From a virus: 24,220 nucleotides of DNA. A program made the translations under genes and the position numbers. Location: the IMG/VR virus record IMGVR_UViG_3300042691_042027, positions 1 to 24,220 of that record; one strand, given 5' to 3'. The notes beneath the pieces were generated by a model. The model had not been told where the DNA came from. It ran no database searches and worked only from the letters and a program-made list of their open reading frames with translations. Positions 3,456 to 20,400 of the stretch are shown here, in pieces (positions within the stretch are counted from its first letter, which is position 1; each line of letters opens with the position of its first letter).

Positions 3456-3912
3456 GCTCACGGGCGTGGCCAACCGCGAGCGCTCGCGCGCGCGTGAGGC
3501 CTTGGATGAATGCAACAACCACAAGATCGACGCGGCGATTTTTGCGCTCGCTGCCGCGCGCATGTTTTCCGAGCTCGGTTTTTTGGTGGGGCAATCACCC
3601 GTCGAGAGTGAGCGCAGCGTGCATTTGCTCATGGTCAGCGGTGGGCCCGGTTTCGAGTGGGCCACGCTCATCCCACAGGATTTGATGTATCAGTTTGGCC
3701 GCTGGATACCGCAAAGCCCTGCGGTGAGCGAGGAGGGCGCCTTAGAGCTCGCAGGCCAAGGGCGCGCCAACCTCATGAATTGGTTTCAGCACGGTGCACA
3801 CACACCCGAGGTGCCCAAGAAACGCGGCCGCAAGCCCAAGGGCGCCACGGTGAGCGAGGGCGAGGGTGAGGAAACCGCCGTCAACGGTGCGCCGGCGGAG
3901 GCCGTTCAATAG
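3319..3912 (+). CDS. Hypothetical protein with AT-hook-like basic tail
   Basis: 197 residues from ATG 3319, chosen because GGAG (3306-3309) sits 9 bases upstream. This gives a 137-base overlap with the preceding gene in another frame. A later ATG at 3436 would cut the overlap to 20 bases but lacks a Shine-Dalgarno. The middle is helical (HKIDAAIFALAAARMFSELG) followed by a mixed segment. Residues 167-175 read KKRGRKPKG, close to the AT-hook core that binds the minor groove of AT-rich DNA, ahead of an acidic tail. Its stop overlaps the converging minus-strand zinc-protein gene by 7 bases. A DNA- or nucleoprotein-associated role is an inference from the tail alone. Confidence 0.65.
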   Translation: MTAPESKANPSSRLLKWAKTLVSPLYSADLERQQLALTQMASGISELTGVANRERSRAREALDECNNHKIDAAIFALAAARMFSELGFLVGQSPVESERSVHLLMVSGGPGFEWATLIPQDLMYQFGRWIPQSPAVSEEGALELAGQGRANLMNWFQHGAHTPEVPKKRGRKPKGATVSEGEGEETAVNGAPAEAVQ

Positions 3913-4061
3913 TCGCCGCCGTCGTAATCATCATCCTCGCATTGCCCTGGTGACTCGCCGCTGCCGTTACAGGCGGTGCACACGCTGCCATCCACCCGTC
4001 CCTCGCCCGAGCCGTTGCACGTGCCGCAAATGGGCCGCTCCTCATCGTCAGCGCTGCACAT
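3906..4061 (-). CDS. 51-residue zinc-binding protein with two DnaJ-type CxxCNGSG motifs
   Basis: A small minus-strand gene. The protein has CGTCNGSG at residues 12-19 and CTACNGSG at 28-35, so C12, C15, C28 and C31 form one four-cysteine zinc site of the kind found in the DnaJ/Hsp40 cysteine-rich domain. An acidic Asp/Tyr/Gly tail follows. There is no J domain, so it is a free-standing half of the usual two-zinc module. The ATG at 4061 has a strong GGAGG with 6-base spacing and overlaps the upstream gene by 14 bases. It ends 7 bases inside the converging plus-strand gene. Zinc binding is a confident family inference; a chaperone or protein-binding role is only suggested. Confidence 0.8.
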   Translation of the reverse strand: MCSADDEERPICGTCNGSGEGRVDGSVCTACNGSGESPGQCEDDDYDGGDY

Positions 4062-4296
4062 CACTCACCTCCAGTTTTTTCGCGCGAATCGCGCATTCAT
4101 ACATGCCAATTTTGGCCCACGCCCGCAGCACATTCGACACTGCGCGCTTGGTGATCCGGCGATTTTCTTTTGCCAAAAACCGCACCGCGTCGGTGATCAG
4201 ATCGTCCGTGAGCGGCACGTGCACCTCGGCTATGCGGTCGAGATCGTCCATAAGTTTCTGGTGTTTGTCGGCCCAAGAAACGGTTTGCATACGCAT
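4048..4296 (-). CDS. Hypothetical small helical protein
   Basis: 82 residues from the ATG at 4296, two bases after the stop of the preceding cassette gene. A GTG at 4308 or an ATG at 4290 are alternatives, and no start has a strong Shine-Dalgarno. The sequence is helical and basic in the middle (FLAKENRRITKRAVSNVLRA), a pattern that could form a winged or simple helix-turn-helix, then MYECAIRAKKLEV. It overlaps the zinc-protein gene by 14 bases, so the two are probably coupled. A DNA-binding role is possible but unproven. Confidence 0.65.
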   Translation of the reverse strand: MRMQTVSWADKHQKLMDDLDRIAEVHVPLTDDLITDAVRFLAKENRRITKRAVSNVLRAWAKIGMYECAIRAKKLEVSDVQR

Positions 4297-4298
4297 GG

Positions 4299-4565
4299 TC
4301 AACCCCACACCCGTGCGGCTTCGCGCGACTCAGCTTCGGTGCCAGCGCACCGGTGGTAATCGCTCAAAAGCTCGCCACAATACTCGCAGCGCGGGTAGTC
4401 ATCGAGGCCGCCGAGGCCTGTGAGGTCATTTGTCCATTTGCCACGGTCAGGGCCCTCGAGAAACTCGGCGATTTGCCCACCCGCGCGGGTTTTCATCACC
4501 TTCACCAGGTAGCCACGCAAAACGTGGGTGGGAGCTCGGGAAACGAGCTCAGGATTGATTCTCAT
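4299..4565 (-). CDS. Hypothetical small protein with a cysteine cluster
   Basis: 88 residues from the ATG at 4565, which overlaps the upstream stop in ATGA and is preceded by GGTGG. The longer frame upstream of this start is antisense to the neighbouring coding gene and was discarded. The N-terminal part is beta-like (LRGYLVKVMKTRAGGQIAEF). The C-terminal part has CEYCGELLSDYHRC, three cysteines plus a histidine that could hold a metal. It is followed closely by the next cassette gene. The family is not recognised. Confidence 0.65.
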   Translation of the reverse strand: MRINPELVSRAPTHVLRGYLVKVMKTRAGGQIAEFLEGPDRGKWTNDLTGLGGLDDYPRCEYCGELLSDYHRCAGTEAESREAARVWG

Positions 4566-4900
4566 TGGCCCACCACCTTTGCGCACACGCGCTTTTGGAG
4601 CTCGGCCATAAAGCGCTTGCCCTCGCCCGACTTGCGCATTTGAAACTGGCCGTTCTTCAGAGCGACATAGCCACCCACCGAGCCACCATCCGTGCCAAAC
4701 ACCGAGCCACCGCGCAGGGGGGCGAGCTCGAGCACCGAACCTGCAAACATGTCGCAATGGGTGAAAGCTTCCTTGTCGCCAGGAGTGAAAAACTTGGAGA
4801 TGGCCACCACCGACATGGAATACATCGACCACTGGAAACCAAACTCCTCACAGGCAGCGAGGAATGCATCGACTTGGGCTTGGACTTGGGTGCGCTTCAT
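4562..4900 (-). CDS. Hypothetical protein, first gene of the minus-strand cassette
   Basis: 112 residues from the ATG at 4900, chosen for the GGAGG with 6-base spacing just upstream; earlier in-frame codons run into the control region. The sequence starts with an amphipathic helix (QAQVDAFLAACEEFGFQW), then a Ser/Met/Val strand region, and a Gly-rich stretch (LRGGSVFGTDGGSVGGYVAL). There is no membrane segment. It heads four consecutive minus-strand genes probably driven by the promoter near 4985-5013. Unknown function; cytosolic by composition. Confidence 0.7.
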   Translation of the reverse strand: MKRTQVQAQVDAFLAACEEFGFQWSMYSMSVVAISKFFTPGDKEAFTHCDMFAGSVLELAPLRGGSVFGTDGGSVGGYVALKNGQFQMRKSGEGKRFMAELQKRVCAKVVGQ

Positions 4901-4984
4901 GGGGAACCTCCGTGCCGCGAGAGATTCGCGACTTCTGAACTGACTTATGCATGCTCTGTGCCAATGACCTGGCCAGCGAAACGA

Positions 4985-5013
4985 CAGATATTTTCGATTT
5001 ATCGATGTGTCAA
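4985..5013 (-). promoter_or_regulatory. Sigma70-type promoter for the minus-strand cassette
   Basis: On the minus strand TTGACA (5013-5008) is a perfect -35 box. A 17-base spacer leads to TATCTG (4990-4985), a fair -10 box. Transcription would begin near 4978 and run through a leader of about 78 bases to the start at 4900. A 12-bp palindrome lies inside the spacer. Confidence 0.55.
4994..5005. promoter_or_regulatory. Palindrome TCGATTTATCGA between -35 and -10: operator candidate
   Basis: TCGAT and ATCGA are exact inverted repeats around TT. The site lies wholly in the spacer of the minus-strand promoter, where a bound repressor would block RNA polymerase. Confidence 0.45.
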
Positions 5014-5033
5014 TGGATTTTCCACTGTCAATG
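5008..5033. repeat. Direct repeat TGTCAATG, two copies 18 bases apart
   Basis: Copies are at 5008-5015 and 5026-5033. Each reads TTGACA on the minus strand, so there are two potential -35 boxes. Only the promoter-proximal one has a plausible -10 at standard spacing. The second copy could be a regulator half-site. Confidence 0.55.
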
Positions 5034-5050
5034 TTGGCGTTTATAGCCAA
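5034..5050. promoter_or_regulatory. Inverted repeat TTGGC-N7-GCCAA
   Basis: Perfect 5-bp arms around a 7-base AT-rich centre, 17 bases in all, a usual size for a dimeric repressor site. It overlaps the weak plus-strand -35 candidate at 5034-5039. Confidence 0.4.
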
Positions 5051-5078
5051 TATGGGCTGTTATTTTTCCGTGGTCACT

Positions 5079-5093
5079 GTCCAACCCTTGGAC
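5079..5093. promoter_or_regulatory. Inverted repeat GTCCAA-CCC-TTGGAC
   Basis: Perfect 6-bp arms around CCC. It lies between the weak plus-strand promoter candidate and the gene at 5208. The short loop and lack of a T-run argue against a terminator, so a protein-binding site is more likely. Confidence 0.4.
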
Positions 5094-5207
5094 GCCTTGA
5101 GGCCTACACAACCCATTGAAATCTCGATGCGCGGAGCTTGGCACGCAGTGTGCTCAATGCGTAATCAGAAGCTGCGCACGGTGCGGAGCTCCGGAGATTT
5201 AAGAACC

Positions 5208-5450
5208 ATGTACGTCATCACCACCCGCTACGGCTCCTTTTGGACAGGCTCTAGTTTTGGCTCGGAATTCCCCGAAGCTCGCAAGCTCAAAAACTTCCGC
5301 GATGCACTCAAAGAGCTTCGCAAAGCAAACAACACCGGACTCGCTGGCCCGTGCGTCATGGTGGTGAATTACGGAATGGAAAACGAGGAAACCTTGGACG
5401 TGACGGGCGCATATACACACGACTCAAATGTGAGACAGTTCAAAGGTTGA
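5208..5450 (+). CDS. Hypothetical phage protein, 80 residues
   Basis: Start ATG 5208 (MYVITTRYGSFWTG), with GGAG at 5193-5196 eleven bases upstream. An in-frame extension back to 5007 crosses the control region and is rejected. The sequence has a beta-like start, then a basic helix (ARKLKNFRDALKELRKA) and a beta-like end (CVMVVNYGMENEETLDV). It is the first plus-strand gene after the divergent region, so it is likely expressed early. The family is not recognised. Confidence 0.65.
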   Translation: MYVITTRYGSFWTGSSFGSEFPEARKLKNFRDALKELRKANNTGLAGPCVMVVNYGMENEETLDVTGAYTHDSNVRQFKG

Positions 5451-5501
5451 ACCGGGTCGAGAAATCGATTAGGAGGTCATGTGGAAATCATCGGAGTCAT
5501 C

Positions 5502-5747
5502 ATGAAAAGCAATCCACCGAAATTAACCATGCAGGTCGTGATTGACCTGGCACTCCACGCCCGAGTCAAAACGCTCGCGGCGCGCTCGGGGCGCTCGGTC
5601 AAAGAAACCCTCGAGGGCATCCTTGAGGCGGCGCTGCCAAAGGCGGAATACCTGGCTGAAAGGCCGCGCATCGGTCGCATCAAGGCGCGCATTGCCGCAC
5701 GCACCGAGCGCATCACGCGGGAGCACCGCGAAAGGCTTGCGCGATGA
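5502..5747 (+). CDS. Ribbon-helix-helix-like DNA-binding protein
   Basis: 81 residues from ATG 5502 (GGAG at 5493-5496). A GTG at 5481 behind a strong AGGAGG would add seven residues and is the alternative. KLTMQVVIDLALHARVKTLA (residues about 7-26) gives the short strand plus helix of a ribbon-helix-helix fold, and GRSVKETLEGILEAAL the second helix with the typical Gly-x-Ser-x-x-Glu start. The tail is very basic (Arg-rich). Such proteins bind operators as dimers, so it is a candidate regulator of the nearby palindromes. Its stop overlaps the next start (ATGA). Confidence 0.65.
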   Translation: MKSNPPKLTMQVVIDLALHARVKTLAARSGRSVKETLEGILEAALPKAEYLAERPRIGRIKARIAARTERITREHRERLAR

Positions 5748-7014: not shown

Positions 7015-7212
7015 GTGATCGACGAGGATGGCCTCACCGACCAGGAGGTGGACTTGGCGCGCGCCGCGGTGGTGCTGCCGCGCGAGCCCGAGGTTGACAT
7101 ACCGATGACTTTCTCGGATGCGACGCAACAATTCATGGATGATGTGGCCAAACCCAAATCGCTTTTCAGCCGCGCCGCCGCCGCGCTCCTGCGCTGGGCG
7201 GGTATAATTTAG
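7015..7212 (+). CDS. Small acidic hypothetical protein
   Basis: 65 residues from GTG 7015, supported by GGAGG (7003-7007) at 7-base spacing. The start is acidic (MIDEDGLTDQEVDLARAAVV) and the end amphipathic (SRAAAALLRWAGII). Its last codons contain TATAAT (7203-7208), part of a possible promoter for the virion block. It closes the run of small genes. The family is unknown. Confidence 0.55.
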   Translation: MIDEDGLTDQEVDLARAAVVLPREPEVDIPMTFSDATQQFMDDVAKPKSLFSRAAAALLRWAGII

Positions 7213-7229
7213 GTTCTCCGCGCGGAGAA
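7203..7229 (+). promoter_or_regulatory. TATAAT box followed by a perfect 16-bp palindrome: candidate controlled late promoter
   Basis: TATAAT (7203-7208) is a perfect -10 box in an otherwise GC-rich area. TTCTCCGCGCGGAGAA (7214-7229) is perfectly self-complementary and starts about where transcription would. No -35 is visible at 16-18 bases. AGGTTC (7211-7216) can instead pair with GAACCT (7256-7261). The palindrome could be an operator; there is no T-run, so it is not a normal terminator. The rest of the gap to 7321 shows nothing clear, though a packaging site could lie here. Confidence 0.4.
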
Positions 7230-7321
7230 GGCGAGCTCAGATTTAGAGAGGCTGTGAACCTTGCAGGCCGGAAAGACGGTCGCACCTCGCAGGCAATCCA
7301 ATTTTCTGCCATACTCTCCTC

Positions 7322-7807
7322 ATGAAAAAGCCAGCACCTCAAAAGAGACCTGGCCACGAGGCACCGGCCAAACGTGGCCGCGGTCAGCCAACCGCATACA
7401 AGCCCGAATACTGCACGCTCATTATTCAGCACATGGCCTATGGTCACTCGCTCGTGAGCTTTGCTGCGGAAATCGGTGTTGTAAAAGAAACCGTAAACGA
7501 ATGGGCCCGCACCATCCCGGAATTCTCTGCCGCAAAAAAGCTTGCACTCCAACTCTGCCAACGCTGGTGGGAGGCTCAGGGCATGCAAAACCTCATCCTG
7601 CCCGAGGGAACCAAGTTCAATACGGTGGTGTGGAGCACCATCATGAAAAACCGCTTCCGTGATGACTACTGCGACAAGGTGCAACACGAGGTCACTGGGC
7701 CCGAGGGCGGACCACTGCAATTGGCAGTTTCCAAACTCTCGCTCGAGGAGGTTCGCGCCCGCCGTGCCGAGGTCGAGCGGCAGTTAGATGCACTCAAGTC
7801 AAGCTAG
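7322..7807 (+). CDS. terS: Terminase small subunit
   Basis: 161 residues. A basic N-terminal tail (KRGRGQPTAYKPEY) precedes a helix-turn-helix at about residues 41-63 (SFAAEIGVVKETVNEWAR), the DNA-recognition fold of small terminases, then helices for ring assembly and an acidic, charged end. The small subunit recognises the packaging site and stimulates the large subunit. It overlaps the large-subunit gene by 20 bases, the standard pairing, which makes the call firm despite the variability of this family. The ATG at 7322 lacks a good Shine-Dalgarno. Confidence 0.85.
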   Translation: MKKPAPQKRPGHEAPAKRGRGQPTAYKPEYCTLIIQHMAYGHSLVSFAAEIGVVKETVNEWARTIPEFSAAKKLALQLCQRWWEAQGMQNLILPEGTKFNTVVWSTIMKNRFRDDYCDKVQHEVTGPEGGPLQLAVSKLSLEEVRARRAEVERQLDALKSS

Positions 7808-9278
7808 AGAGCTCGAGCTCGAGCGGCAACGCCTCATCCTCGACGAGCGCGAGCGTGAGATCCTGGCGCATGAGCGCTGGACCGCAGGCGACCTCACATA
7901 CAAAATGCACCGCTGCCAACTCATCGTGCACGAGCGCTTGCGCAACCTGCCCAGGGAGGCGCGTTGGCGGATTGCTGAGTGTGGCCGTGGCTGGGGAAAA
8001 TCCTGGCTCGACGTGATGATGGCCCTCGAGGACGCTTCGCAATTTCCCAATGACTACCCGGTGTGGATCATTGGCCCCGAGCTCAAACAAACCCGCCGCA
8101 TCGTCGAGCCCATCATGCGGGTGATCACCGCCGATGCGCCGCCTGGCATGGTGCGCCACCTCGCCAGCGAGGACATGTGGGAAGTCACCAACCCAAAGAC
8201 CGGGTGCAAAAACTGGATTTTGCTCGGGGGCTTCAACCTCGGCAGCTATGACAAATGGCGTGGGCAGCGCGGCAAGAGCTTTTTTTTGGAGGAGGCGCGC
8301 GACATCAAGCCTGAGAGCTACCTCGAGGGTGTGGTCGACACCATGACGCCCATGGCCATGCACTCGTGGGGCGGCATCACCATTTTCACCACGGTGCCCA
8401 GGGAATTGGACCATCCTTATGACTCACACACGGTGCCAGCGGCCAAGCTCCACAACGCCTACCTGCAATTCACCATCCACGACAACCCCACCATCGATGA
8501 TGACCAGAAAGCGCAAATCATCCGTGACATGGGTGGTGAGGACAGCCCCTCCTACAAGCGCGAGCACCTGTGCCTGCGGGTGCGCGATGGCAGCTTGGCC
8601 ATCCTGCCGTCCTTTGACTCGGCGCGGCAGGTGCGCGAGCTCACACCCCCGGACTTCTGCCATTGGGTGACCTGCATCGATGGCGGCGGCATTGAGGACA
8701 AGACGGTGGCGCAGCTTTGCTACTGGGATTTCGAGCGGGCGTGCTTTTGCATCTATGACGAGGAGGCCTTTGAGCCCAACACGGCCTCGGACATCATTGC
8801 CGAGCGCATCTTTGACATGGAGCGGCGCAACCTTTCGCCACACACACCCGCGGGCGAGCGCATGCCAAAAATGCTCGAGCCACCCAGGCCAGCGGACCTC
8901 GCAGGGCAAACCCGCATCGACCTATTTAGGTTGCACGGACTCTCAACCCAAACGCCGATGAAAGATGACCTCGAGGCCTCGGTCAATGTGCTCGAGGTGG
9001 CCAGCCGCCGCGGCAAGCTCGAGGTGCACCCACGCTGCAAGCTCACGGTGGTGACCTTTGAGCACGGGCGCTTCACCGACAACCGCCGCGACCTGCGGCG
9101 CACCAAGGAGCTCGGCCACTGCGACGCCTTCATGAGCGCGGTTTACGGCCACCGCGCCATCAACCGCACCAACCCATGGCCGGTGCAGGAGGTGCAAAGC
9201 TTCCGGCAGGTGGTGCGCACGCAACCTGCGGACCCAGATGTGGCAAACTTGGCTCGTGCATTGAAAATGAGGAGATGA
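7788..9278 (+). CDS. terL: Terminase large subunit (packaging ATPase-nuclease)
   Basis: 496 residues. The ATPase has Walker A GRGWGKS (residues 66-72), Walker B FFLEEA (165-170) with the catalytic glutamate, and a coupling-type motif TIFTTVP (198-204). The nuclease follows: CIDGGGIEDKT (about 296-305, Asp298) starts the RNase H-like fold, and GHCDAF (about 443-448, Asp446) supplies the late acidic residue. The protein pumps DNA into the prohead through the portal and cuts it. The length is normal. The ATG at 7788 lies inside the end of the small-subunit gene. All key motifs are intact, so the gene should be active. Confidence 0.95.
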   Translation: MHSSQARELELERQRLILDEREREILAHERWTAGDLTYKMHRCQLIVHERLRNLPREARWRIAECGRGWGKSWLDVMMALEDASQFPNDYPVWIIGPELKQTRRIVEPIMRVITADAPPGMVRHLASEDMWEVTNPKTGCKNWILLGGFNLGSYDKWRGQRGKSFFLEEARDIKPESYLEGVVDTMTPMAMHSWGGITIFTTVPRELDHPYDSHTVPAAKLHNAYLQFTIHDNPTIDDDQKAQIIRDMGGEDSPSYKREHLCLRVRDGSLAILPSFDSARQVRELTPPDFCHWVTCIDGGGIEDKTVAQLCYWDFERACFCIYDEEAFEPNTASDIIAERIFDMERRNLSPHTPAGERMPKMLEPPRPADLAGQTRIDLFRLHGLSTQTPMKDDLEASVNVLEVASRRGKLEVHPRCKLTVVTFEHGRFTDNRRDLRRTKELGHCDAFMSAVYGHRAINRTNPWPVQEVQSFRQVVRTQPADPDVANLARALKMRR

Positions 9279-9282
9279 GGGA

Positions 9283-9495
9283 GTGGAAAAAGAAAAGAGT
9301 GTCTTTGGCGCCGAGGCCTCCACCTACGCGATGTGGTGTGGATCTGAAAACCTCACAAAAACCTGGACATTTGAAACCATGCAGCGCGGTTGGGAAGCCA
9401 TCAAAAACCGCAGAATGAAACCAAACGAACGCGGGCCCATCTCAATTTACGAGCTCATTCATGGCCGCGAACGGGTGAAGGAAAGGCGGAGGTGA
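9283..9495 (+). CDS. Small hypothetical protein after the terminase
   Basis: 70 residues from GTG 9283, with GGAG (9271-9274) 8 bases upstream. Residues 25-45 (TWTFETMQRGWEAIKNRRM) are helical, and the end is strongly basic (HGRERVKERRR). It begins four bases after the terminase stop. An alternative ATG at 9275 in another frame gives a Pro/Arg-rich product and is less likely. Function unknown; the basic tail could contact nucleic acid. Confidence 0.5.
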   Translation: MEKEKSVFGAEASTYAMWCGSENLTKTWTFETMQRGWEAIKNRRMKPNERGPISIYELIHGRERVKERRR

Positions 9496-9508
9496 GTGTC
9501 AGGGCCTC

Positions 9509-9535
9509 ACGCGGATTTTACCCTTCGGGTCGCGT
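9509..9535 (+). other. Bulged hairpin in the 9496-9650 gap
   Basis: ACGCG (9509-9513) pairs with CGCGT (9531-9535), and ACCC (9520-9523) with GGGT (9527-9530), leaving a GATTTT bulge on the left and a TTC loop. No T-run follows. It may stop transcription weakly, protect RNA, or be chance. Confidence 0.35.
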
Positions 9536-9598
9536 TCGGGCTTGCTCTCCCTACCCTCTCGTTGAGATCAAATCGTGTCAAATGGTGAGCTAGAGATT

Positions 9599-9638
9599 TT
9601 GGTTATTGGTAAGCTCATGGGTTGGTTATTGGTAAGCT
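9599..9638 (+). repeat. 17-bp perfect direct repeat, period 23
   Basis: TTGGTTATTGGTAAGCT occurs at 9599-9615 and 9622-9638, separated by CATGGGT-type sequence. It is AT-richer than the surroundings and lies just ahead of the GGAGG of the zinc-ribbon gene. It could be a paired binding site or a small tandem duplication. Confidence 0.7.
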
Positions 9639-9650
9639 AGGGAGGCTGAC

Positions 9651-9845
9651 TTGGCCGTTGGTGCAAAGCAAAACTCGAATGTGCGTTGCACGGTGTGCAA
9701 GCGATACTTTTACCCACATGGCACGCGTGAGCGGCGGGGCAAGGTGTGTCATCCCTGTGTGGAGGCCACGCCGGTGCGCGAGGTCAAAAGTGAAAACACT
9801 AAACGCACTAAAAAGAGTGAACGCACTAAAGTGGGGCAGAAATGA
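9651..9845 (+). CDS. Small zinc-ribbon protein with Lys-rich tail
   Basis: 64 residues from a TTG start at 9651, chosen because GGAGG (9641-9645) sits 5 bases upstream. Residues 13-16 CTVC and a second pair CHPC about 14 residues on form a four-cysteine zinc ribbon. The tail is rich in Lys, Thr, Arg and Ser (ENTKRTKKSERTKVGQK) and likely binds nucleic acid. Its stop overlaps the next ATG (ATGA). The position between terminase and head genes might suggest a packaging or late-expression helper, which is speculation. Confidence 0.6.
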   Translation: MAVGAKQNSNVRCTVCKRYFYPHGTRERRGKVCHPCVEATPVREVKSENTKRTKKSERTKVGQK

Positions 9846-10237
9846 AAATCACACTCGGCCAGCTTTTTGATAAAACCAAACTCCTGCGCACCGCCGATCC
9901 CACATTCAAAGAGATCGTCCGCAACCTGACGCCCTTCATCGACTACGTGAACCAAGGCTTTGGGCAAATCGTCCGCGCCCTCTCAGGCGAGCTCACATTC
10001 AATGACAACCTCAAGGGCGAGATCATCACCGTTGAGCTCCTGCATGCCACCGCCACCCGCGCGCAGGTCAAATCACGCGACATCCTGACCATCATCCCAC
10101 TGTCGGTGGAGTCCAACACGCTCTATGGCCTGGACCGCTCCTTCACCGATGCGGGCGAATTGCAATTGACCGCCTACTGGCGCAGCACACCCGTGACCAC
10201 TGCCATCAAATGCACCTTTTTTGTCGCATACAACTGA
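9842..10237 (+). CDS. Conserved-looking phage protein of the head region, unknown role
   Basis: 131 residues. The N-terminal part is helical (RTADPTFKEIVRNLTPFIDY) and the C-terminal part beta-rich (LTAYWRSTPVTTAIKCTFFV). The middle (KGEIITVELLHATATRAQVK) looks like a domain seen in phage fibre or virion-associated proteins with a beta-sandwich. It may be a small structural protein. The ATG overlaps the zinc-ribbon stop by 4 bases. The family is not identified with certainty. Confidence 0.6.
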   Translation: MKITLGQLFDKTKLLRTADPTFKEIVRNLTPFIDYVNQGFGQIVRALSGELTFNDNLKGEIITVELLHATATRAQVKSRDILTIIPLSVESNTLYGLDRSFTDAGELQLTAYWRSTPVTTAIKCTFFVAYN

Positions 10238-10244
10238 CGGCCGC

Positions 10245-10315
10245 TACTCGCCCTTGAATCCGTAACCGCTCCCACGTCATCCTGTGTGCAAACTCCACCC
10301 ACACAGAGGCGAGTA
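10245..10315 (+). promoter_or_regulatory. Hairpin region before the scaffold gene that can mask its start
   Basis: TACTCGCC (10245-10252) is complementary to GGCGAGTA (10308-10315). Immediately inside its right arm CTGTGTG (10282-10288) pairs with CACACAG (10300-10306) with an 11-base loop. Together they cover GAGG (10306-10309), the likely Shine-Dalgarno of the ATG at 10319. The complementarity is exact; a control role is inferred. Confidence 0.5.
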
Positions 10316-10318
10316 AAT

Positions 10319-11404
10319 ATGACGGACGCGGTAGCTCCCGCGGCTTCGGCCGCACCTGCTTTGCAAAATTCCAATTCCAGCACCCAGGCGCAGGCGCAAA
10401 ACAGCCAGCGCGCGCCACAGGCGCCCGATCCCAAGGCCGCCTCCGGCAACAATCCGCTCGCCCGTCCCTCACCCGATCCCGCCAACAAGAAACCCACCAC
10501 CGAGCCCACCAAGGCATCCTCTGCCGCGCCCAAAGACAAACCCGAGGGTGACACGCAGGCCGAGCAAAAGGAGGCCGCCGCCGAGCGCCGCCGCATCAAG
10601 GTCAAGGTCGATGGCCAGGAGCAGGAGCTCGACGAGGAGGAGGTGGTCCGCGACTACCAGAGCAACAAGGCCGCGCAAAAGCGCTTTGCCGAGGCCGCAG
10701 CGCTGCGCAAGGAAGCCGAGCAGATCATCAAGAACTGGAACGGCATGCGCGAGCAGTACAAGTCAAACCCCGAGCTCGCGCTCGAGCACCTCAAAGGTTT
10801 GGGCGTGGACGTGGACGCGGTTGCACGCAATCGCGCCATCAAAAAGCTCGAGTGGGATCTCATGACGCCGCAGGAGCGGCAAGCGCACGAGGACAGGCGC
10901 TTTCGCGAGGAGCACGAGAAGCGCGCTGCCACAGAAAAACAAACCGCCACCGAGCGCGCCGCACAAGAAAAGCGCGAGCGCGACAGAACGCACATCGGCA
11001 AACAAATCGATACGCATTTGCACCAAGTCTTCACTGAGAATGGCTATGACCCGTCCAATCCCATCGTCGCTACCATTGGCGCGCACGTGGGCATGCACAT
11101 GATGGCCAGCCTCAGGAGTCCCGAGGGGCCGATTGATGCCAGGGAAGCTCACCGCCGCGTGCTCAAAGACAGCATCGGTGTGGTGAACTACCTCATCAAG
11201 CAAAACCAGGGAGATCCCGCAAAATTGAAAGCTCTATTTCCGGAGCTTTTCAAAGTTTCACGTGCCGCATCGGTGGCAGAGGCCAAGCGCAACACGCCGC
11301 ATTATGGGCCCGGAAATTCTCCGCAAGCCCAGACGCCAAGCAAAAAAGCTGAGCCCATGACATTCCGCGAGGCAATGCAGAAAGAATATGGACTCAATTT
11401 TTAA
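10319..11404 (+). CDS. Capsid scaffolding-type protein
   Basis: 361 residues from ATG 10319 (GAGG 9 bases upstream); an in-frame ATG at 10286 lies within the hairpin region. The first 90 residues are Ala/Pro/Ser/Gln-rich and disordered. Then comes RRIKVKVDGQEQELDEEEVV, followed by RDYQSNKAAQKRFAEAAALR, an arrangement common in phage scaffold-like proteins. A long charged coiled coil follows to about residue 235 and a helical end (MTFREAMQKEYGLNF). It sits just before the putative decoration and capsid genes, where scaffolds usually lie. Scaffolds guide prohead assembly and then leave or are cut. No protease motif is visible. Confidence 0.75.
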   Translation: MTDAVAPAASAAPALQNSNSSTQAQAQNSQRAPQAPDPKAASGNNPLARPSPDPANKKPTTEPTKASSAAPKDKPEGDTQAEQKEAAAERRRIKVKVDGQEQELDEEEVVRDYQSNKAAQKRFAEAAALRKEAEQIIKNWNGMREQYKSNPELALEHLKGLGVDVDAVARNRAIKKLEWDLMTPQERQAHEDRRFREEHEKRAATEKQTATERAAQEKRERDRTHIGKQIDTHLHQVFTENGYDPSNPIVATIGAHVGMHMMASLRSPEGPIDAREAHRRVLKDSIGVVNYLIKQNQGDPAKLKALFPELFKVSRAASVAEAKRNTPHYGPGNSPQAQTPSKKAEPMTFREAMQKEYGLNF

Positions 11405-11419
11405 GCGAGGTAACTAAAC

Positions 11420-11947
11420 ATGTCGCGCGATATAGTTTTGCGCCATGACAAATTGGAAAGGTCACAGCTTTCCATTTTGCGTTTTGAATTTTCCGTAGCG
11501 AGCGGTGTGGCTTCACTCATTTCGGGTGCACCCGGAGCTCCGCTCATTTTCGGTGAGACGGCAACCCCGTTCACCATCGCGCTCGTGAACGCGCTTTTGG
11601 AGTTTGACTCCACCGGTGCGGCGCTTTCCACCACGAGCACATCCGAGCTCGCAACCACCACCATGTTTGGCTCGACTGCCATGGGCACGGACGCCTTCGG
11701 CATCGTGGTCGCATGCGGCGGCGGAGTGAAAAAGGCGCACTTCATCCGCGCCATTGAATACTCCAACTCCTCGTCCGCCATCAAAGGCGAGTACAAGGGC
11801 GCCAACTCGTCCGAGCCAGGAAACTCCCTTGCCTCTGCATTGTGGACGACGCCCGCCGGAAACGTCGCGGCACGTCTTGTCATCAACGGCCATGACTCGA
11901 TTTCAGCGGGCTTTCTGTCCGTCGAAATCGGCGTCGTTTTGAAGTGA
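11420..11947 (+). CDS. Putative capsid decoration (head) protein
   Basis: 175 residues, rich in Ser, Thr, Ala and Gly, with an alternating beta pattern (TTTMFGSTAMGTDAFGIVVA) and no membrane segment. It lies directly between the scaffold and the major capsid protein, where small decoration or cement proteins are often encoded. It is longer than the lambda gpD type and has no recognised motif, so the role rests on position and composition. A CGAGG is upstream of the ATG. Confidence 0.5.
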   Translation: MSRDIVLRHDKLERSQLSILRFEFSVASGVASLISGAPGAPLIFGETATPFTIALVNALLEFDSTGAALSTTSTSELATTTMFGSTAMGTDAFGIVVACGGGVKKAHFIRAIEYSNSSSAIKGEYKGANSSEPGNSLASALWTTPAGNVAARLVINGHDSISAGFLSVEIGVVLK

Positions 11948-11960
11948 GGTCACATAAACC

Positions 11961-13307
11961 ATGGCTCAACCTAATAACCAGCAGGCAACTGACCTATTTC
12001 AAGACTCCTATGGCAGTCTGAACAACCTCCTTCCGGAGGCACAGGCGTTCTGTGAGGTCGTGAAGTACACCGAGTCCGAGAAAGTTGGCGACAACTTCAT
12101 TGAAGGACTCGTGCTCACCGCCGAAGTCGGCATCACCTTCGGTGGCAAGGAGATTGAGGCATTTGCCATCAACCCCGCCATCGCCGGTGTTGTGAAGCAA
12201 ATCAGCATGCAGGCCTACTCGACGGTGCTGCCGTCAGTGATCCCCTGGAATGCTATTTCCCGCTCGGTGGACGCAGGCAAAACCGCGTTCGTCAAAGCCA
12301 CGGCACACGTGGTCGACAACAACATGGCGTCGCACTACCGCTTCATTGAGGCGGCCGCGCTTTACGGCCAATCTGACGCACTTCTGGGCTACGTGAGCTA
12401 CGCGACTGCAACCTACCGCACGGTGAGCTTCACCAACGGCGGCGGCGCACTCACGGTCAACGGTTCCTCGGTGACCTTCACGGCAGGCGTCAACACCACC
12501 TCGAAATGGATCTTGCTTGCTCCCGGCGAATTTGCCGCAGGCTTGTGGGTCGGAATGGAGGGTGTGGTTGTCAACCAAGTGGACTCCACCGGTGCCATCG
12601 TCGGCACGGGCAAGCTCGTTGCCGTCGATGCGGAAATGGGTGCGGTGCAAGTCGACTTCACACCAACCGCAGCGTCGAGCACCACGAGCCACCGCCTTTG
12701 CTATGACGGTTGGGAATCTCAGAAAGAGATGCCCGGCGCGTTCAAGATCATGCAAAACACCGGCTCGCTGTTTGGCGTCTCAGCAGCGACCTACTCGCTG
12801 TACAAGGGCACCACGCACGCGCTCGGTTCCGTGCTGCCGACTTTCGCACGCTTCAATGAAGGCGTTGTGAAGGCCGTCAACCGCGGTGGTTTGGGTGGCA
12901 AATCCCGCAAGGATGGCAACCTGACTGTGATCTGCAACCCGCGCACTTGGCAAAAGCTCCTCAATGAGCAGGCATCGCTACGTAGTTACGATAAGTCGTA
13001 CTCGAGCGCTGAATTTGTTCAGGGCGCCGAGTCGATTGTCTATTACACCGCTGCCGGCAAGGCTGAATTCATCGCGTCCGCGTACATGAAGGAGGGCTAT
13101 ATGCTCGCCCTGCATGTCAAGGATTGGGTGCGTTCGGGCTCGACGCAGATCCAAATGGGCGTGCCTGGAATTGACACGAAATTCTTGTTCGTGCTCCAGA
13201 ACAACGCCGGTATGGCATTCCGCACATTCAGCGACCAGTACGTGTTCTGCCGAGCACCTGCGAAGTCGATCTTGTTCACTGGCATCAATGACGAGAACGC
13301 ATCGTAA
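11961..13307 (+). CDS. Major capsid protein (HK97-fold candidate)
   Basis: 448 residues. The order scaffold / small head protein / this gene, its length, and a helical N-terminal arm followed by alternating helix and strand fit an HK97-fold major capsid protein. A Gly/Ser/Thr-rich beta segment at about residues 145-255 looks like an insertion domain that could project from the capsid. The late part (VICNPRTWQKLLNEQASLRS, then KFLFVLQNNAGMAFRTF) resembles the P-domain and the final strand region. No propeptide is obvious. Start ATG 11961 has GAGG upstream. A strong hairpin follows the stop. Assignment is by context and pattern. Confidence 0.8.
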   Translation: MAQPNNQQATDLFQDSYGSLNNLLPEAQAFCEVVKYTESEKVGDNFIEGLVLTAEVGITFGGKEIEAFAINPAIAGVVKQISMQAYSTVLPSVIPWNAISRSVDAGKTAFVKATAHVVDNNMASHYRFIEAAALYGQSDALLGYVSYATATYRTVSFTNGGGALTVNGSSVTFTAGVNTTSKWILLAPGEFAAGLWVGMEGVVVNQVDSTGAIVGTGKLVAVDAEMGAVQVDFTPTAASSTTSHRLCYDGWESQKEMPGAFKIMQNTGSLFGVSAATYSLYKGTTHALGSVLPTFARFNEGVVKAVNRGGLGGKSRKDGNLTVICNPRTWQKLLNEQASLRSYDKSYSSAEFVQGAESIVYYTAAGKAEFIASAYMKEGYMLALHVKDWVRSGSTQIQMGVPGIDTKFLFVLQNNAGMAFRTFSDQYVFCRAPAKSILFTGINDENAS

Positions 13308-13324
13308 TTGATCCTTTCTTGCCT

Positions 13325-13365
13325 TGGGAGTGAGTGAGTTGCCGGGAGCTCCTCATTCACTCCCA
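13325..13365 (+). terminator. 14-bp hairpin after the capsid gene (terminator or RNA-stabilising element)
   Basis: TGGGAGTGAGTGAG (13325-13338) pairs with CTCATTCACTCCCA (13352-13365), 14 positions with one G-T wobble, around a 13-base loop. ATCCTTT flanks it on both sides (13311-13317, 13365-13371). It begins 18 bases after the capsid stop. Only a short CCTTT follows, not a true T-run, so termination is likely partial at best; lowering read-through or stabilising the capsid message is possible. Confidence 0.5.
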
Positions 13366-13382
13366 TCCTTTGCGAGGACGCC

Positions 13383-15476
13383 ATGGAATCCATTTCATTT
13401 GCCGGCACAACCTATCAATTCCCAAACCGCGCCGGTGAAAATGGCTGGGCCACGGCACTCACGAGCTACCTGCGCGCGATTGGCACATACGCGCAAACCA
13501 CATCAAACCAGCGTGTCGGCACGCGCGTGGCCACCACCACACCGGTGACGGTTGCAAGCTCCGATTACGCCGTCATCGTCAAGCTCACAGCACCCGGAGC
13601 GGTGGCCGTTACGCTGCCCGCGGGCGCCACAGGGCGCACGTTTGTCATCACTGATGGCACAGGCGATGCATATACAAACAACATCACAATCACACCGGAC
13701 GGCACCGATAAAATCCAAGGCGCCTCATCCTATGTGATGAATGAAAACTACGGCTCGGTGACGCTGATTTGGGATGCGGCCGCGAGCTCGCCATCGTGGC
13801 GCATCGCAAGCTCGTTTGCGGGCGACAACCCCGTAGTTGCCAGCTTGCGCGCCACGGCCGGCACGGCCAGCACGAGCACCACCACCGGCACCATCATCGT
13901 CACGGGCGGCGTAGGCGTCTCCGGCGCCATCTATGCAGGGTCACTGCAGGCCACGCCGGTGGGTTCAACCACGGCCGCGTCAGGGGCCTTTACGACGCTC
14001 ACCTCCACAGGTGCCTCAACATTGGGCAGTGCCTCCAACGCCGTGGTCACAATTGGCCACTCGGCATCAACCGCCGCGCACCTGGCTTATGGCCGCTCGC
14101 TCACATTCACCGGTGACACCGGCGGTGATGCAGTCTTAGCCTTGGTGTCTGCGAGCACAAACAACGCGATTCTGACCGTCAACGGTCCTGACAACGCGGG
14201 CGCCGCCTCAAGCCTGTACTTTAAGAGCGCAAGCTCCGTGCGTTGGCGCATCCAAAGCGGTCAATCTTACACGGGCTACGCCGGCCAAACCGCCGATGCG
14301 CTGTTGTTTGTCAACGATCCCAACAGCGCTCCAGTTGCCTCGCTCGAGCCAGGAGCCATCGGCAAACTGCGCCTTTATTCCAACGCGGGCGCCAACAACG
14401 AGTACCTCGAGCTTAGCAAAACAGCCTCGGGCGGCGTTTCAGTCATCGACTCCAACAAAACTAGCGGTGGCACAGCGCGCAGCATTGAAATCCGCGTTGC
14501 CGGAACCGCCGCGGTCACAGTCAATGCCTCGGCCACAGCCTCAACCTCGACCACCACAGGCGCGGCCGTAGTCACGGGTGGGCTTGGTGTCAGCGGCGCC
14601 ATTTACGCAGGCTCATTACAAAACACGCCGGTGGGATCGACCACAGCAAGCTCGGGCGCCTTCACTACGCTCACCAGCACGGGCGCGTCGACCTTTGGCA
14701 GCGCGGGCAACGCGGTAGTTACAATTGGCCATACCGGGTCGACCGCTGCACAACTCATGTACGGCAACAGCTTCACGATGGCTGGCGCAGGCGCAGGCGG
14801 TGGCACGGCGGTTGACCTTGATTTCATCATCAACACCGGCGCAACAACCCGCTCGCCAGCCTTCCGGGCTCACAACGGCACGCATCAAAGTCGCATCGGT
14901 TTGCAAGGCTCAACGAGTGGGCTTATCACGGGTGCCACAACCGGTGGTCTCTGCATCCGTTCTGATGGTGTTGGAATTTGGTTCAGCGGTGACTCTGGTG
15001 GAACCACCCACGGCTCGTGTTCCACCGCTGGTGAATGGACCTTCCCACTGCAGCCAGCGTTCATGATGCAAAAAACCGGCTCTCAAACAATTGAAGTCGG
15101 CAGCGAAAATGTCGATTGGACCGGCACCGAGGTTTACGATCAGGGGAGTGATTTCGACGGCACGTCGACGTTCACAGCGCCGGTAACTGGAATCTATGAA
15201 TTCTGTGGCTGTGTGTTCATCTCAAGCCAAACCACGGTGCTCAACGACACGATGGAGCTTATTCTGCGCGTCAACAGCGTGGATGTGCTGACCATCGCTC
15301 GCCACGTCGTTCAAGTAGGCGTGGCTGCTACCAACTACAACATGAATTTCACCACCCGTTGGAAGGTCACAGCTGGGCACACGGTCGTTATCAAGATGTC
15401 TAACGGCGGAACAAACACGGCGACCATCGGCGGCGGCGCGGATCGCACGTGGTTCTCCGGTCAGTTGGTTGCATGA
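13383..15476 (+). CDS. Phage fibre protein with duplicated stalk repeats and C1q-like tip
   Basis: 697 residues. The N-terminus (TTYQFPNRAGENGWATALTS) resembles fibre attachment segments. A beta module with DGTGDAYTNNITITPDGTDK follows (about 60-125). Residues about 162-237 and 386-461 are two copies of one repeat (ASTSTTTG ... VTGGVGVSGAIYAGSLQ ... TPVGSTTASSGAFTTLTSTG), 224 residues apart. Residues about 557-697 form a beta domain with FTAPVTGIYEF and a final TWFSGQLVA, matching the C1q/TNF-like trimeric fold. Such tips bind receptors. It is encoded right after the capsid, so it could be a head or tail fibre. GAGG lies upstream of ATG 13383. It is intact. Confidence 0.8.
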   Translation: MESISFAGTTYQFPNRAGENGWATALTSYLRAIGTYAQTTSNQRVGTRVATTTPVTVASSDYAVIVKLTAPGAVAVTLPAGATGRTFVITDGTGDAYTNNITITPDGTDKIQGASSYVMNENYGSVTLIWDAAASSPSWRIASSFAGDNPVVASLRATAGTASTSTTTGTIIVTGGVGVSGAIYAGSLQATPVGSTTAASGAFTTLTSTGASTLGSASNAVVTIGHSASTAAHLAYGRSLTFTGDTGGDAVLALVSASTNNAILTVNGPDNAGAASSLYFKSASSVRWRIQSGQSYTGYAGQTADALLFVNDPNSAPVASLEPGAIGKLRLYSNAGANNEYLELSKTASGGVSVIDSNKTSGGTARSIEIRVAGTAAVTVNASATASTSTTTGAAVVTGGLGVSGAIYAGSLQNTPVGSTTASSGAFTTLTSTGASTFGSAGNAVVTIGHTGSTAAQLMYGNSFTMAGAGAGGGTAVDLDFIINTGATTRSPAFRAHNGTHQSRIGLQGSTSGLITGATTGGLCIRSDGVGIWFSGDSGGTTHGSCSTAGEWTFPLQPAFMMQKTGSQTIEVGSENVDWTGTEVYDQGSDFDGTSTFTAPVTGIYEFCGCVFISSQTTVLNDTMELILRVNSVDVLTIARHVVQVGVAATNYNMNFTTRWKVTAGHTVVIKMSNGGTNTATIGGGADRTWFSGQLVA
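13866..14766 (+). repeat. Two in-gene repeat units (13866-14095 and 14538-14766) of the fibre
   Basis: The two roughly 230-base units are 672 bases apart, keep the same frame and are much closer in protein than in DNA, with many synonymous changes. This points to an old duplication held by selection on the protein. Confidence 0.7.
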
Positions 15477-15485
15477 GAGGTGTCT

Positions 15486-15794
15486 ATGAAAGTTGCACTC
15501 GTTAATGGCATCGAGCGTAAAGATGGCGTGTTGGTGGAGTACCACCTCATCAAAAGTCTCTTTATTCAAGATGACCAAATCAATGTTGAGTTTGTTTCCT
15601 ACCTGAATAAGGCGGCCTACTTTGCTGATAAGGACCAGGTTGGAAAATCGCGTTACGCTCAGGTAGCGTTCACCGGTTTTCCAATAAAAGAAAAAGACAT
15701 CCTCGATGCTCTCAAGGCATTGCCTGAGTTTGCTGGGGCGCAAGAAGATCGCGAGCAGAAGCCGCCGAAACCCATTGAATCGAGATTTCCATAA
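15486..15794 (+). CDS. Small protein downstream of the fibre
   Basis: 102 residues from ATG 15486 (GAGAGG 5 bases upstream; a GTG at 15480 would add two). The start is beta-rich (MKVALVNGIERKDGVLVEYH), later a helix (KEKDILDALKALPEFAG), then a Pro/Lys-rich tail. Position directly after a fibre gene is where fibre chaperones or tip-associated proteins are often encoded, but no motif supports that. Function unknown. Confidence 0.6.
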   Translation: MKVALVNGIERKDGVLVEYHLIKSLFIQDDQINVEFVSYLNKAAYFADKDQVGKSRYAQVAFTGFPIKEKDILDALKALPEFAGAQEDREQKPPKPIESRFP

Positions 15795-15814
15795 ACCCCA
15801 AAAGGAGCTCCCCA

Positions 15815-16153
15815 ATGCCCAGTTTGAAAGTTTCGCAGATTCTGACTGATGAAAACGACAAGCCGATTGATGTTATCGAGCGCGAAGGAAAGCCCAAGCT
15901 CACGCTTGCGATTGCCTGCATCTTGGCGCTCGCGCTGCAACACCAACAACTCTCTGTCGAACAATCGGGCAAACGTTACGATGTCATGAAAAAGCTCAAG
16001 CGCGCGGAGGCAAAAGGCACGGAAACGCTTTCGCTCACCGTTGATGACGCAAAGCTCCTTTTGGAATGCGCTGCCGTGCGTTGGAATTCTTGGGTGTTTG
16101 GGCAAATCAAAGACGCCCTTGACGGCGTGAAAGACGAGGAGGGTGAAGCGTGA
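15815..16153 (+). CDS. Hypothetical structural-block protein, 112 residues
   Basis: ATG 15815 follows AAAGGAG (15801-15807). This GGAG is part of the palindrome GGAGCTCC (15804-15811). Residues about 28-50 are helical and hydrophobic (LTLAIACILALALQHQQLS) but short and flanked by charge, so more likely a buried helix than a membrane segment. The rest is helical with an acidic end. Its stop overlaps the next start (GTGA). It could be a small tail or head-completion protein; no family is recognised. Confidence 0.6.
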   Translation: MPSLKVSQILTDENDKPIDVIEREGKPKLTLAIACILALALQHQQLSVEQSGKRYDVMKKLKRAEAKGTETLSLTVDDAKLLLECAAVRWNSWVFGQIKDALDGVKDEEGEA

Positions 16154-16467
16154 ATGTCGAACTGATTGAGGAAATCCTGCAAGAGTTTGTCGACAACATG
16201 CACGACGCGATGCACGCGGGAAAATACGAGGATGAAGCGCCGGCGCCAGAAATGGACGCCATGGGTGACGCCATGAGCGAGGAGGAAATGGGTGAGGGCG
16301 AGTCCACCACCAATCCACCCAAGGCCGCGGCCGATGAGGACGTTGCGAGCGTTTTCAAGCAAATCCGTGGCGGCGATGGCCTGCCGAACCGCGAAGGCGC
16401 GGCATTGGCCATTCCCGGCGCACGCAAACCGCCGAGCAAAGGGTTTCCCGCACGCAAGAGGGCATAA
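16150..16467 (+). CDS. Acidic, Met-rich small protein
   Basis: 105 residues from GTG 16150 (GTGA junction). The N-terminal helix (VELIEEILQEFVDNMHDAMH) leads to a very acidic Glu/Met-rich middle (MGDAMSEEEMGEG), then a basic, Pro-rich end (GARKPPSKGFPARKRA). A disordered protein with opposite charge at each end could bridge virion proteins or bind DNA. It is encoded just before the adaptor. Unknown family. Confidence 0.6.
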   Translation: MNVELIEEILQEFVDNMHDAMHAGKYEDEAPAPEMDAMGDAMSEEEMGEGESTTNPPKAAADEDVASVFKQIRGGDGLPNREGAALAIPGARKPPSKGFPARKRA

Positions 16468-16470
16468 GCC

Positions 16471-17415
16471 ATGATGACAAGCACGCAGTTTATTGCCGCG
16501 GTTGAAGATCTCATCTCAATGCCCGTTAACCAGACGCGCTTTGATGAGGACGCTTTGATGCGCTTTGGTGACTCCGTGCTGCGCACGCACATTCTGCCGC
16601 TCATCTTGGGCGTGCGTGAGAGCTACCTCGAGGCGTGGGAAAATTACACGGTCACGGGTGACAACTCTTATGCCGTGCCCGCGCGCGCCACAGGCCGCGC
16701 CGTCATCTCAGTGAACTACTGGCCTGCGGTGGATGAGGGTGAGTACAAGCTCATTCCCATCAAGACGCACGAGGCGCATGAGTACACCACCGCGGGTGGC
16801 GTGCCGACACACTTCTATCTTTCGGGCGATCGCATCTATGTGCTGCCGGTGCCAACCGACACCACGCACGAGGTGCGCGTACTGCATGACCGCAAGCCAT
16901 CCTTGCTCACGGATGTGGCCAACACCGCGCAGATCACAGCCATCAACACCAGCACCGGTGCGCTGACATGCTCATCGGTGCCAACCACGGTGATCACCGC
17001 GTCCACACCGGTGGACCTCATCCAAGGCGTGGCGGGAAACAGGCCAGCGGCCATTGATCTCACACCGACGAATGTTTCCTCAACCATCGTGACACTCACC
17101 GCGGCCGACCTGCCCGAGGGGCTCGCGGTGGGCGATTACATCGCCTTGGCAGGCTATTCGCCGGTGCTGCAAATCCCTGAGGAACTGCACGATCTGACGG
17201 TGCTCGCGGTGGCGCTCAAGATTTGCCCATCGATTGGTGACCTGGAGCTCACCAAGGAGCTCAAAGACCAGTTCAAAACCGAATCAACGTCGATGACAAA
17301 GCTCTATGTGCCGCGGGTCAAAGGCTCAACCCAGGCCATCGTGCCGCGGCAGGGCCTCCTGCGCGGGCGTAGAGGCGGCCGGCAACCCTTTTACCCACAG
17401 GATCCTTTGACATGA
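16471..17415 (+). CDS. Head-tail adaptor (podovirus-type connector) protein
   Basis: 314 residues. The opening (EDLISMPVNQTRFDEDALMR, then FGDSVLRTHILPLILGVRES) is the helical core seen in podovirus adaptor proteins that sit under the portal. A beta insertion at about 155-230 (ITAINTSTGALTCSSVPTTV, then PEGLAVGDYIALAGYSPVLQ) and a helical end with PEELHDLTVLAVALKICPSI complete the usual pattern. The adaptor joins portal and tail nozzle. The ATG at 16471 is followed by a second ATG at 16474. It overlaps the nozzle gene by 4 bases, consistent with their joint function. Confidence 0.8.
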   Translation: MMTSTQFIAAVEDLISMPVNQTRFDEDALMRFGDSVLRTHILPLILGVRESYLEAWENYTVTGDNSYAVPARATGRAVISVNYWPAVDEGEYKLIPIKTHEAHEYTTAGGVPTHFYLSGDRIYVLPVPTDTTHEVRVLHDRKPSLLTDVANTAQITAINTSTGALTCSSVPTTVITASTPVDLIQGVAGNRPAAIDLTPTNVSSTIVTLTAADLPEGLAVGDYIALAGYSPVLQIPEELHDLTVLAVALKICPSIGDLELTKELKDQFKTESTSMTKLYVPRVKGSTQAIVPRQGLLRGRRGGRQPFYPQDPLT

Positions 17416-20400
17416 CGCAGGCCACGGTTTCGTCATGGCGTGGGCTCTATGTGCAGCCCAACTCATTCTCCGAGGTGCCCGATGGCGCTTTGGAGGTGGC
17501 CGAAAACGTTGTCGTGACTTTCGACGGCCGCTTGCGCAAGGTGCGCGGCATCACCCAACTCTCAGGCACACTCACCACGCCAACCACGGTGCTCGCGTAT
17601 TTGGATGAGATTTTCGTTGTGTACAACTCGAAAATCGGCAGCGTGAATACAAGCACGGGCGTGGTGAGTGACCTAACGGGTGCGGTGACCATCAACTCGG
17701 GTTCCAAGGCGCGCGCCGCGGAGGCGGGTGGCAACCTTTACATTGCCTCGGCCACGGGTGTGCGAAAGCTCGAGTCCGCATCCGCCACGGTGCTCGCCGC
17801 GGGCATTCCCGCGGGCTTGGACCTCACCATTTCGCTTTCGGGTGTGTCCGGCATCTTGGCACCATTCACCATGGTGGGATACCGCGTCGTTTTCGGCAGG
17901 CTTGACGCCAACAAAAACAAGGTCACGGGCGCACCCAGCGAACTCACCACCAAGGGCAACGCAGCACAACAATCGGGCGCCACGGCAGCGCACACCGCCA
18001 CACCCAAGTACGTGCTGGTGACCACGAGCTCGGTGCATGGCCTGACCACCGGTGACACGGTGGTGATTGAGGACGCCGATGATTCGGGCGGCGACGCGGA
18101 TGGCACATACACCATCACGCTTGCCTCCTCTCACACCTTTGTCGATGGCGACGTCAACACCGGAACCGATGTCATCACAGAGGTGGGCCACGGTTTTGCA
18201 ACCGGGCAAATCGTGCGTTTCAGCAACTCCGGTGGCGCGTTGCCGACAGGACTCGCGGCAGCGACCGACTATTGGGTGATTTGGGTTTCCACTGACACGT
18301 ACAAGGTGGCCTCATCCTACGCCAATGCGCTCGCGGGAACGCAGGTCGACATCACCGGTGCTGCCGGCGGTGGTACGCACACGGCGACGCCCACCACCAC
18401 ATCGCAGTTTCGTTACACCATCACGGGAGATGCCACCGGCCTCACGGTTGTGACCTACGGCATTTACAAAAAACCGACGATTGTTTTCACGCTGCCGACT
18501 GAGCTCACAACCTCGTGCTTTTATCAGGTGTATCGCACCACGGCGTCGGCATCCGCCACCACGCAGCCCAACGATGATGGCCAACTCATTTATGAAGCCA
18601 ACTTCACGAGCACGGAAATATCCAACGGCTACGTGACTTTTCAGGATACAATTGATGAGATTTTCAAAGGCGCCGACCTGTACACCAACCCCAACCAAGG
18701 GGGCGCGGCCTCCGCAAACGGGCGTCCGCCGTTTTGCGCTGACCTGTGTTTGTTCCGCGATTGCATGGTTTATGGAAATGTGCAATTTCCGTTCAATCTC
18801 ACGCTTTCGCTCATTTCAGTCACTGCGGCGAATTTTGTCGCAAACGATTACATCGAAATCACCAGCGGTGCCACCTCACGCCGTTACATCGCCACCACCA
18901 CCTTGCCGCAAAGCGAAGGTGGGCCAGCGGCGGCAACACCAAACACAGCGACAAACTGGGACTATGGCGGGCTTTCGGTCGGCGGGCACGCGTTTTTCTA
19001 CCTCTCAAACTCGAGCTCAACCTCAATTTCGGTGCCAATCGCAACGACGGCCAAGAGCTTAGGCAAGGCCATCAACCGCCGCACGCTTTCTGAGGTGTAT
19101 GCGCGTTACCTTTCGGCCACCAATGATGTGCCAGGGCAGCTTTACCTTTTTACGAAAGCGCTCACACCGACGTTTTCCATCACCGCAAGCTCCACTACCG
19201 TGGGTGCAAACTTTCTGCCGGTGCTGCCCACATCGGGCACAACCGTTGCGGCCGAGAATCAGGATGAAGCCAACGTGCTTTACACGAGCAAGATTGGCGA
19301 ATACGAGGCGGTGCCGATTGGCAACCGCTTTCCGGTGGGCCCAAAGAGCTCCAACATCTTGCGCATCTTTCCACTGCGCGATTCTGTCATCATCCTGACC
19401 GACGCCGGCGTTTACAAAATGACAGGCGATGCGCCCTCAAACTTCCAAATCACGCTTTTGGACTCGACCGTGATTTGCGTGGCCGCTGACAGTGCGGCCA
19501 TTCTGAACAATGAGGTGTTTTTCCTTTCGAACCAGTGTGTGGTTGCAGCGAGCGAGTCTGGTGTGCAGGGCGTGAGCAGGCAAATCGAGCCGTTGTTTCG
19601 CGGCATCATCGGCCGCACGGACATTGCCTCGCTTGCCGATGGCGTGGGCTATGACTCGGAGCATGAATACCGCCTCTCAACCATCACGCCTGACTCGGAT
19701 GAGCACAACGTTGTTTACATTTACAACACGGTGACCGAGGCGTGGACCACGGCCACGCGCGTGTTTCTAGATGCGGTGGTCGACCCATCGGCTGACCGCT
19801 TGTATTTGCTCAACGCTGACAACCAAGTCGACAAAGAACGCAAAGAGCAAACCAAGCTCGATTACACGGGTGACAGTGAGGCCGGCACCGCAGGGCCGCT
19901 CACAGGCACCGACACCGCCGAGCTCGTGTTTGCCAACCTCGAGCCCGAGGTGGGCGATATCGTCATCAAGAGTGGCAACGAAGGATTCAACAAAATCGAA
20001 TCGATTGACGATTCGGTGAGTCCATTGCGTTACACCTTCACGGGCGACGTGGATTTTGTCGAAACCGATGTCATCACGCTTTACAAACCCATCATCTCAC
20101 TCGTGCGCACGGCGCCCATCACCGCGGGTGACGTTTCGCGCTGGAAACAAGCGTGGCAATTCAACCTGCATTTCCGCGACAACTCGTGCTCGGAGCTCGC
20201 GATCTCGTTTTACACCGACCAGTGCAACGGCACCGACGAAATTTCTTGGGTTGGTGTCGTGACAAATAACGGTTGGGGTTACAACTGGGGCGGACCGTGG
20301 GGCGGTGACTCAATCGAGCAGGTTTACGTAACAGCACCATCGCAACCGTGCATCACATACATTCCCAAGGAAGCCTCACGCTTCATTTTTATCCAAGCGC

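Follow-up and report, generated by a model that had tools for sequence, protein, structure and literature searches.

Palindromic elements in a divergent phage intergenic region and their paired recurrence ahead of a putative ribbon-helix-helix gene

Does the non-coding gap between two divergently oriented gene clusters of a phage serve as a control region, and if so, which of its inverted repeats might be operators and which protein might bind them? The question is raised by a short segment (positions 4985-5093) of the virus record IMGVR_UViG_3300042691_042027, which was analysed over its whole length of 24,220 bases (hereafter, the window); every statement that something is unique or found nowhere else covers these 24 kb only. 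The initial annotation had read this segment as a compact divergent control region, with an operator inside a leftward promoter and with additional repeats pointing to more than one regulator. The features on which our assessment is based are collected in Table 1.

Table 1. Genes, promoter candidate and repeat elements in and around the divergent gap (positions are those of the window).
Feature	Position	Strand	Description
First gene of the minus-strand cluster	4562-4900	-	112 aa; ATG start, GGAGG upstream
Divergent intergenic gap	4901-5207		307 bp; 51% GC
Candidate sigma-70 promoter	5013-4985	-	TTGACA-17-TATCTG; -35 at 5013-5008, -10 at 4990-4985
Operator-like TCGATTTATCGA	4994-5005		In promoter spacer; two 5-bp arms, asymmetric TT centre
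Imperfect inverted repeat	5001-5019 and 5110-5128 (arms)	+	15/19; matched by 2.7% of gap shuffles
TGTCAATG words	5008 and 5026 (5008-5033)	+	18 bp apart; each holds a minus-strand TTGACA
Inverted repeat TTGGCGTTTATAGCCAA	5034-5050		TTGGC-N7-GCCAA; single occurrence in window
Inverted repeat GTCCAACCCTTGGAC	5079-5093		GTCCAA-CCC-TTGGAC; perfect arms
First plus-strand gene	5208-5450	+	80 aa; no known family
Second 15-bp element GTTCAAAGGTTGAAC	5438-5452		GTTCAA-AGG-TTGAAC; overlaps stop codon of 5208 gene; resembles GTCCAACCCTTGGAC
Second 12-bp element TCGAGAAATCGA	5457-5468		Just before AGGAGG; other strand TCGATTTCTCGA matches TCGATTTATCGA at 11/12
Possible ribbon-helix-helix (RHH) gene	5481-5747	+	88 aa; GTG start, AGGAGG at 5471-5476 upstream

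The gap and its genomic setting

The gap is a true divergent intergenic region, because genes start at 4900 on the minus strand and at 5208 on the plus strand. The leftward start is in turn supported by the preceding GGAGG and by a single relative of the encoded protein, a homologue with 57% identity from the locus L002, whose first residue aligns with that start. In L002, too, the homologous gene adjoins a divergent gap bearing a palindrome, and the view of the segment as a divergent control region is thus well supported by the gene layout. The core of the gap (4985-5093) has a GC content of 41% versus 58% for the window. On the plus strand, the gene at 5481 is followed by small genes and then by the terminase genes, whereas on the minus strand overlapping small genes extend down to 3906. 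The four tiny overlapping genes of the 3906-4900 interval form an island between plus-strand gene blocks, and the product of one of them (3906-4061) carries paired CxxCxGSG motifs resembling a DnaJ zinc finger, with no match in Pfam.

DNA searches of phage records found no similar DNA in the phage collection and, taken together with protein scans of viral contigs and species genomes, yielded distant relatives only. In its virion proteins, the window shows a distant relationship (about 28-51% identity) to a phage of Silvanigrella aquatica and to a few IMG/VR contigs. For the virion module (7322-24220, plus strand), the phage collection offers a single named relative, the unannotated Silvanigrella phage CP017838.1, and the related IMG/VR contigs constitute a small uncharacterised group. 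Other recognisable plus-strand products include an ERF-family single-strand annealing protein (1749-2447; Pfam E 2.8e-20), which is probably a phage recombinase, and an SU10-type adaptor protein (16471-17415; Pfam E 7e-10).

Promoter candidate and repeats within the gap

The leftward promoter proposed by the initial annotation is present, with its perfect TTGACA (6/6 consensus on the minus strand), 17-nt spacer and TATCTG, but its strength was overstated. The -10 hexamer agrees with TATAAT at three of six positions, retaining the A at position 2 and lacking the T at position 6, that is, the last T, which is a highly conserved -10 position; a plain consensus promoter scan did not report the site. 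The overall count of 9/12 matches was equalled in 56% of dinucleotide-shuffled versions of the gap. When scored with a weighted matrix, the site ranked fifth among 241,920 placements in the window, and 25% of gap shuffles were as good. It is the top-scoring site of the gap, is correctly oriented and lies ~78 bases from the start codon. Considered alone, the leftward promoter is indistinguishable from chance. Two other candidates were rejected, namely, a second promoter built on the other TTGACA (5031-5026), for which there is no acceptable -10, and a plus-strand terminator at 5043-5060, of a kind that the scan yields by chance.

The repeated TGTCAATG words had likewise been given more significance than they carry. 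Although they are indeed present 18 bp apart, the gap contains two repeated 8-mers against 0.8 expected, a number within chance (20% of shuffles), and across the window TGTCAATG shows no enrichment; at this level, the pair was rejected as a regulator array. TCAATG, which occurs four times in the gap, is a borderline case (6% of shuffles).

The 12-bp palindrome described in the promoter spacer exists, but really consists of two 5-bp arms around TT, and the two further inverted repeats of different sequence were found exactly as described, the one at 5034-5050 overlapping a weak plus-strand TTGGCG-18-TGTTAT. Counting arms of at least 5 and loops of at most 8, the gap holds six inverted repeats versus 2.2 in shuffles, a number attained in 2% of the latter; 15% of the 307-bp stretches of the window hold as many, so that the enrichment is modest.

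Paired recurrence of two gap palindromes

Two of the gap palindromes, slightly changed, recur together at 5438-5468, ahead of the Shine-Dalgarno sequence of the 5481 gene, an arrangement that had been overlooked in the initial annotation. The TCGANNNNTCGA and GTNCAANNNTTGNAC forms each occur at exactly these two places within the whole window, whereas TTGGC-N7-GCCAA has no further copy there. The paired copies ahead of the RHH-like gene span 31 bp and represent two of the six gap palindromes. Among ~2,380 control segments of 51 bases drawn from the window, only two, which overlap each other and cover 5438-5468, match two of the six, and neither 20,000 shuffles of the 5438-5468 segment nor 4,000 shuffles of the gap produced two matches, in a test that was designed after the recurrence had been seen and that includes one copy (5438-5452) overlapping the coding end of the 5208 gene. 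The copies of the 15-bp element differ symmetrically, with C/G replaced by T/A in both arms.

The paired recurrence exceeds chance expectation and bears directly on one alternative, namely, that the palindromes are chance inverted repeats of an AT-rich non-coding gap and that their reappearance ahead of the 5481 gene is a coincidence found by looking. Consistent with this explanation, the inverted-repeat density of the gap is matched by 15% of window stretches, and both the repeated words and the promoter score are at or close to chance level. However, the double recurrence is unique in the window, with an estimated chance probability of less than 1e-4, a figure that does not yet take into account the small number of gaps inspected. 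Coincidence is an unlikely source of the paired recurrence, and we regard the chance explanation as a whole as unlikely, too.

Independent evidence for reading the palindromes as operators comes from the joint reappearance of two of them in front of the RHH-like gene, the sole other place in the window where they are found as a pair. At the level of sequence, the paired recurrence supports the notion of operators common to the gap and the 5481 gene. Thus, the operator reading put forward in the initial annotation is now backed by an observation additional to those on which it was built, whereas its extension to more than one regulator acting on the region is plausible only.

A different explanation invokes RNA rather than DNA: the recurring elements would form hairpins in plus-strand leaders and control translation rather than transcription. 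The elements at 5438-5452 and 5457-5468 could indeed fold as 6-bp stems ahead of the AGGAGG, as could 5079-5093, in the form of GUYCAA/UUGRAC stems with a triloop and of a GAAA-capped stem immediately upstream of the 5481 Shine-Dalgarno sequence, and the stems stay paired despite the C-G to T-A change. Yet, the stability of the 5430-5510 leader is no greater than that of shuffled sequences (z -0.10), the element at 4994-5005, being upstream of the leftward start, would have no role in a plus-strand leader, and there was no match to any Rfam family, so that control by RNA appears quite improbable. That the gap is instead a replication origin, an attachment site or a host-factor site, as might befit an AT-rich non-coding segment with inverted repeats beside a strand switch, is more improbable still, given that it contains neither an iteron array nor significant direct repeats and that two elements paired at a gene start fit operators better.

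A possible shared-operator circuit and its relatives

We favour, with a probability of roughly 60%, the view that the region holds the promoters and operators of two divergent phage transcription units, with the 5481 gene under the same control. One weak promoter of the host type would read leftward into the small-gene cluster (4900-3906), and the rightward unit, comprising the 5208 gene, the RHH-like gene and the genes towards the packaging module, would be transcribed from a putative rightward promoter. Dimeric phage DNA-binding proteins may recognise at least two types of operator, TCGATTTATCGA and GTCCAANNNTTGGAC. A protein bound to the former, between the -35 and -10 elements of the leftward promoter, would exclude RNA polymerase, and the latter would be the operator type of the rightward side. 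With both operators directly ahead of it, the RHH-like gene would probably be subject to the same control and, in the simplest form of the circuit, its own product would feed back on one of the two sites. It is doubtful that the two unrelated operator types act as a linked pair, in the divergent promoter gap and again ahead of the RHH regulator gene, through which two different regulators would together govern the cluster of small genes, the operon read rightward and the regulator as well. Overall, the segment looks like a genuine divergent control region of an ordinary phage type, for which the evidence of shared operators is better, and that of the promoter weaker, than first claimed. The kind of device is already well known; the paired recurrence is the new result.

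Three proteins had been named as candidate regulators. The RHH (5481) and HTH (2517) candidates find weak, below-cut-off profile support, but the third, a Rha-like protein (52-744), has no Rha match in PHROG, NCBIfam or Pfam profiles. The product of the 5481-5747 gene, which stands one gene away from the gap, scored against several RHH profiles, in all cases below the cut-off (FitA-like, 18.4 vs 27 bits; ParD, 17.4 vs 27.3; Omega, 17.2 vs 33.3; RelB-like, 14.7 vs 50). Its single-sequence structural model (pLDDT 70) consists of two helices and a turn, with no strand; this model and that of the 4048-4308 (minus strand) product were too uncertain for use as search queries. The most economical guess, which we advance tentatively and consider possible rather than probable, is that the 5481 product controls its own gene through the 12-bp element; the HTH-like protein could be the binder of the 15-bp element.

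Several known systems offer parallels. In lambda-type phages, the multi-site operators OR and OL separate divergent units and mediate feedback on a regulator gene through three related sites. The arrangement proposed for the window is similar in having multi-site operators between divergent units and feedback on a regulator gene, but its sites are dissimilar rather than three related ones, and the gap is not flanked by a recognised cI/cro-like pair. Another counterpart is the 33-34 intergenic switch of mycobacteriophage BPs (PR/Prep, OR), where a 12-bp palindrome lies between the -35 and -10 elements of a divergent promoter and blocks RNA polymerase when bound, as known from experiment, and further copies of the operator occur elsewhere in the genome (PMC4557955). 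The window resembles BPs in its predicted divergent promoters, its operator-like 12-bp palindrome in a promoter spacer and the additional copy of that palindrome. By contrast, the BPs operator, CGACATATGTCG, differs in sequence from that of the window, the repressor gene of BPs is one of the divergent pair, and in the window two dissimilar palindromes recur. The RHH protein RelB of Escherichia coli binds a 12-bp palindrome ahead of its own gene, with the half-site TTGTAATTACAA (PMC2812701). The relO/RelB system thus resembles the window in combining a small RHH or, in our case, putatively RHH-like protein with a 12-bp palindrome ahead of its gene, but the sequences differ and the window revealed no gene for a partner toxin. 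If the proposed circuit is true, it opens a way into gene regulation in a phage group that is uncharacterised and a distant relative of the Silvanigrella phage, and it singles out a candidate regulator and two short DNA elements for direct tests.

The compound operator pattern was absent from the viral contigs scanned, and among the loci retrieved the window alone contained the 12-bp or the 15-bp element; L002 and the relatives of the virion module lack these palindromic sites. The RHH-like proteins encoded in L002 do not align with those of the window. On the opposite strand, L002 encodes a homologue of the 5744 gene as well as small- and large-terminase-like ORFs, the latter assigned from their translations by eye rather than by a profile match. 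The L002/L020 gap contains a strong inverted repeat, GTTTCAGAAACCAAC/GTTTGATTCTGAAAC (15 nt, 87% complementary, arms 4 nt apart; L020 5585-5618), which is likely an operator with a sequence different from those of the window. Elsewhere in L002, the 7060-7746 segment is a low-complexity array that reads as alternating repeats of the MALA and GSGDGS types in different frames.
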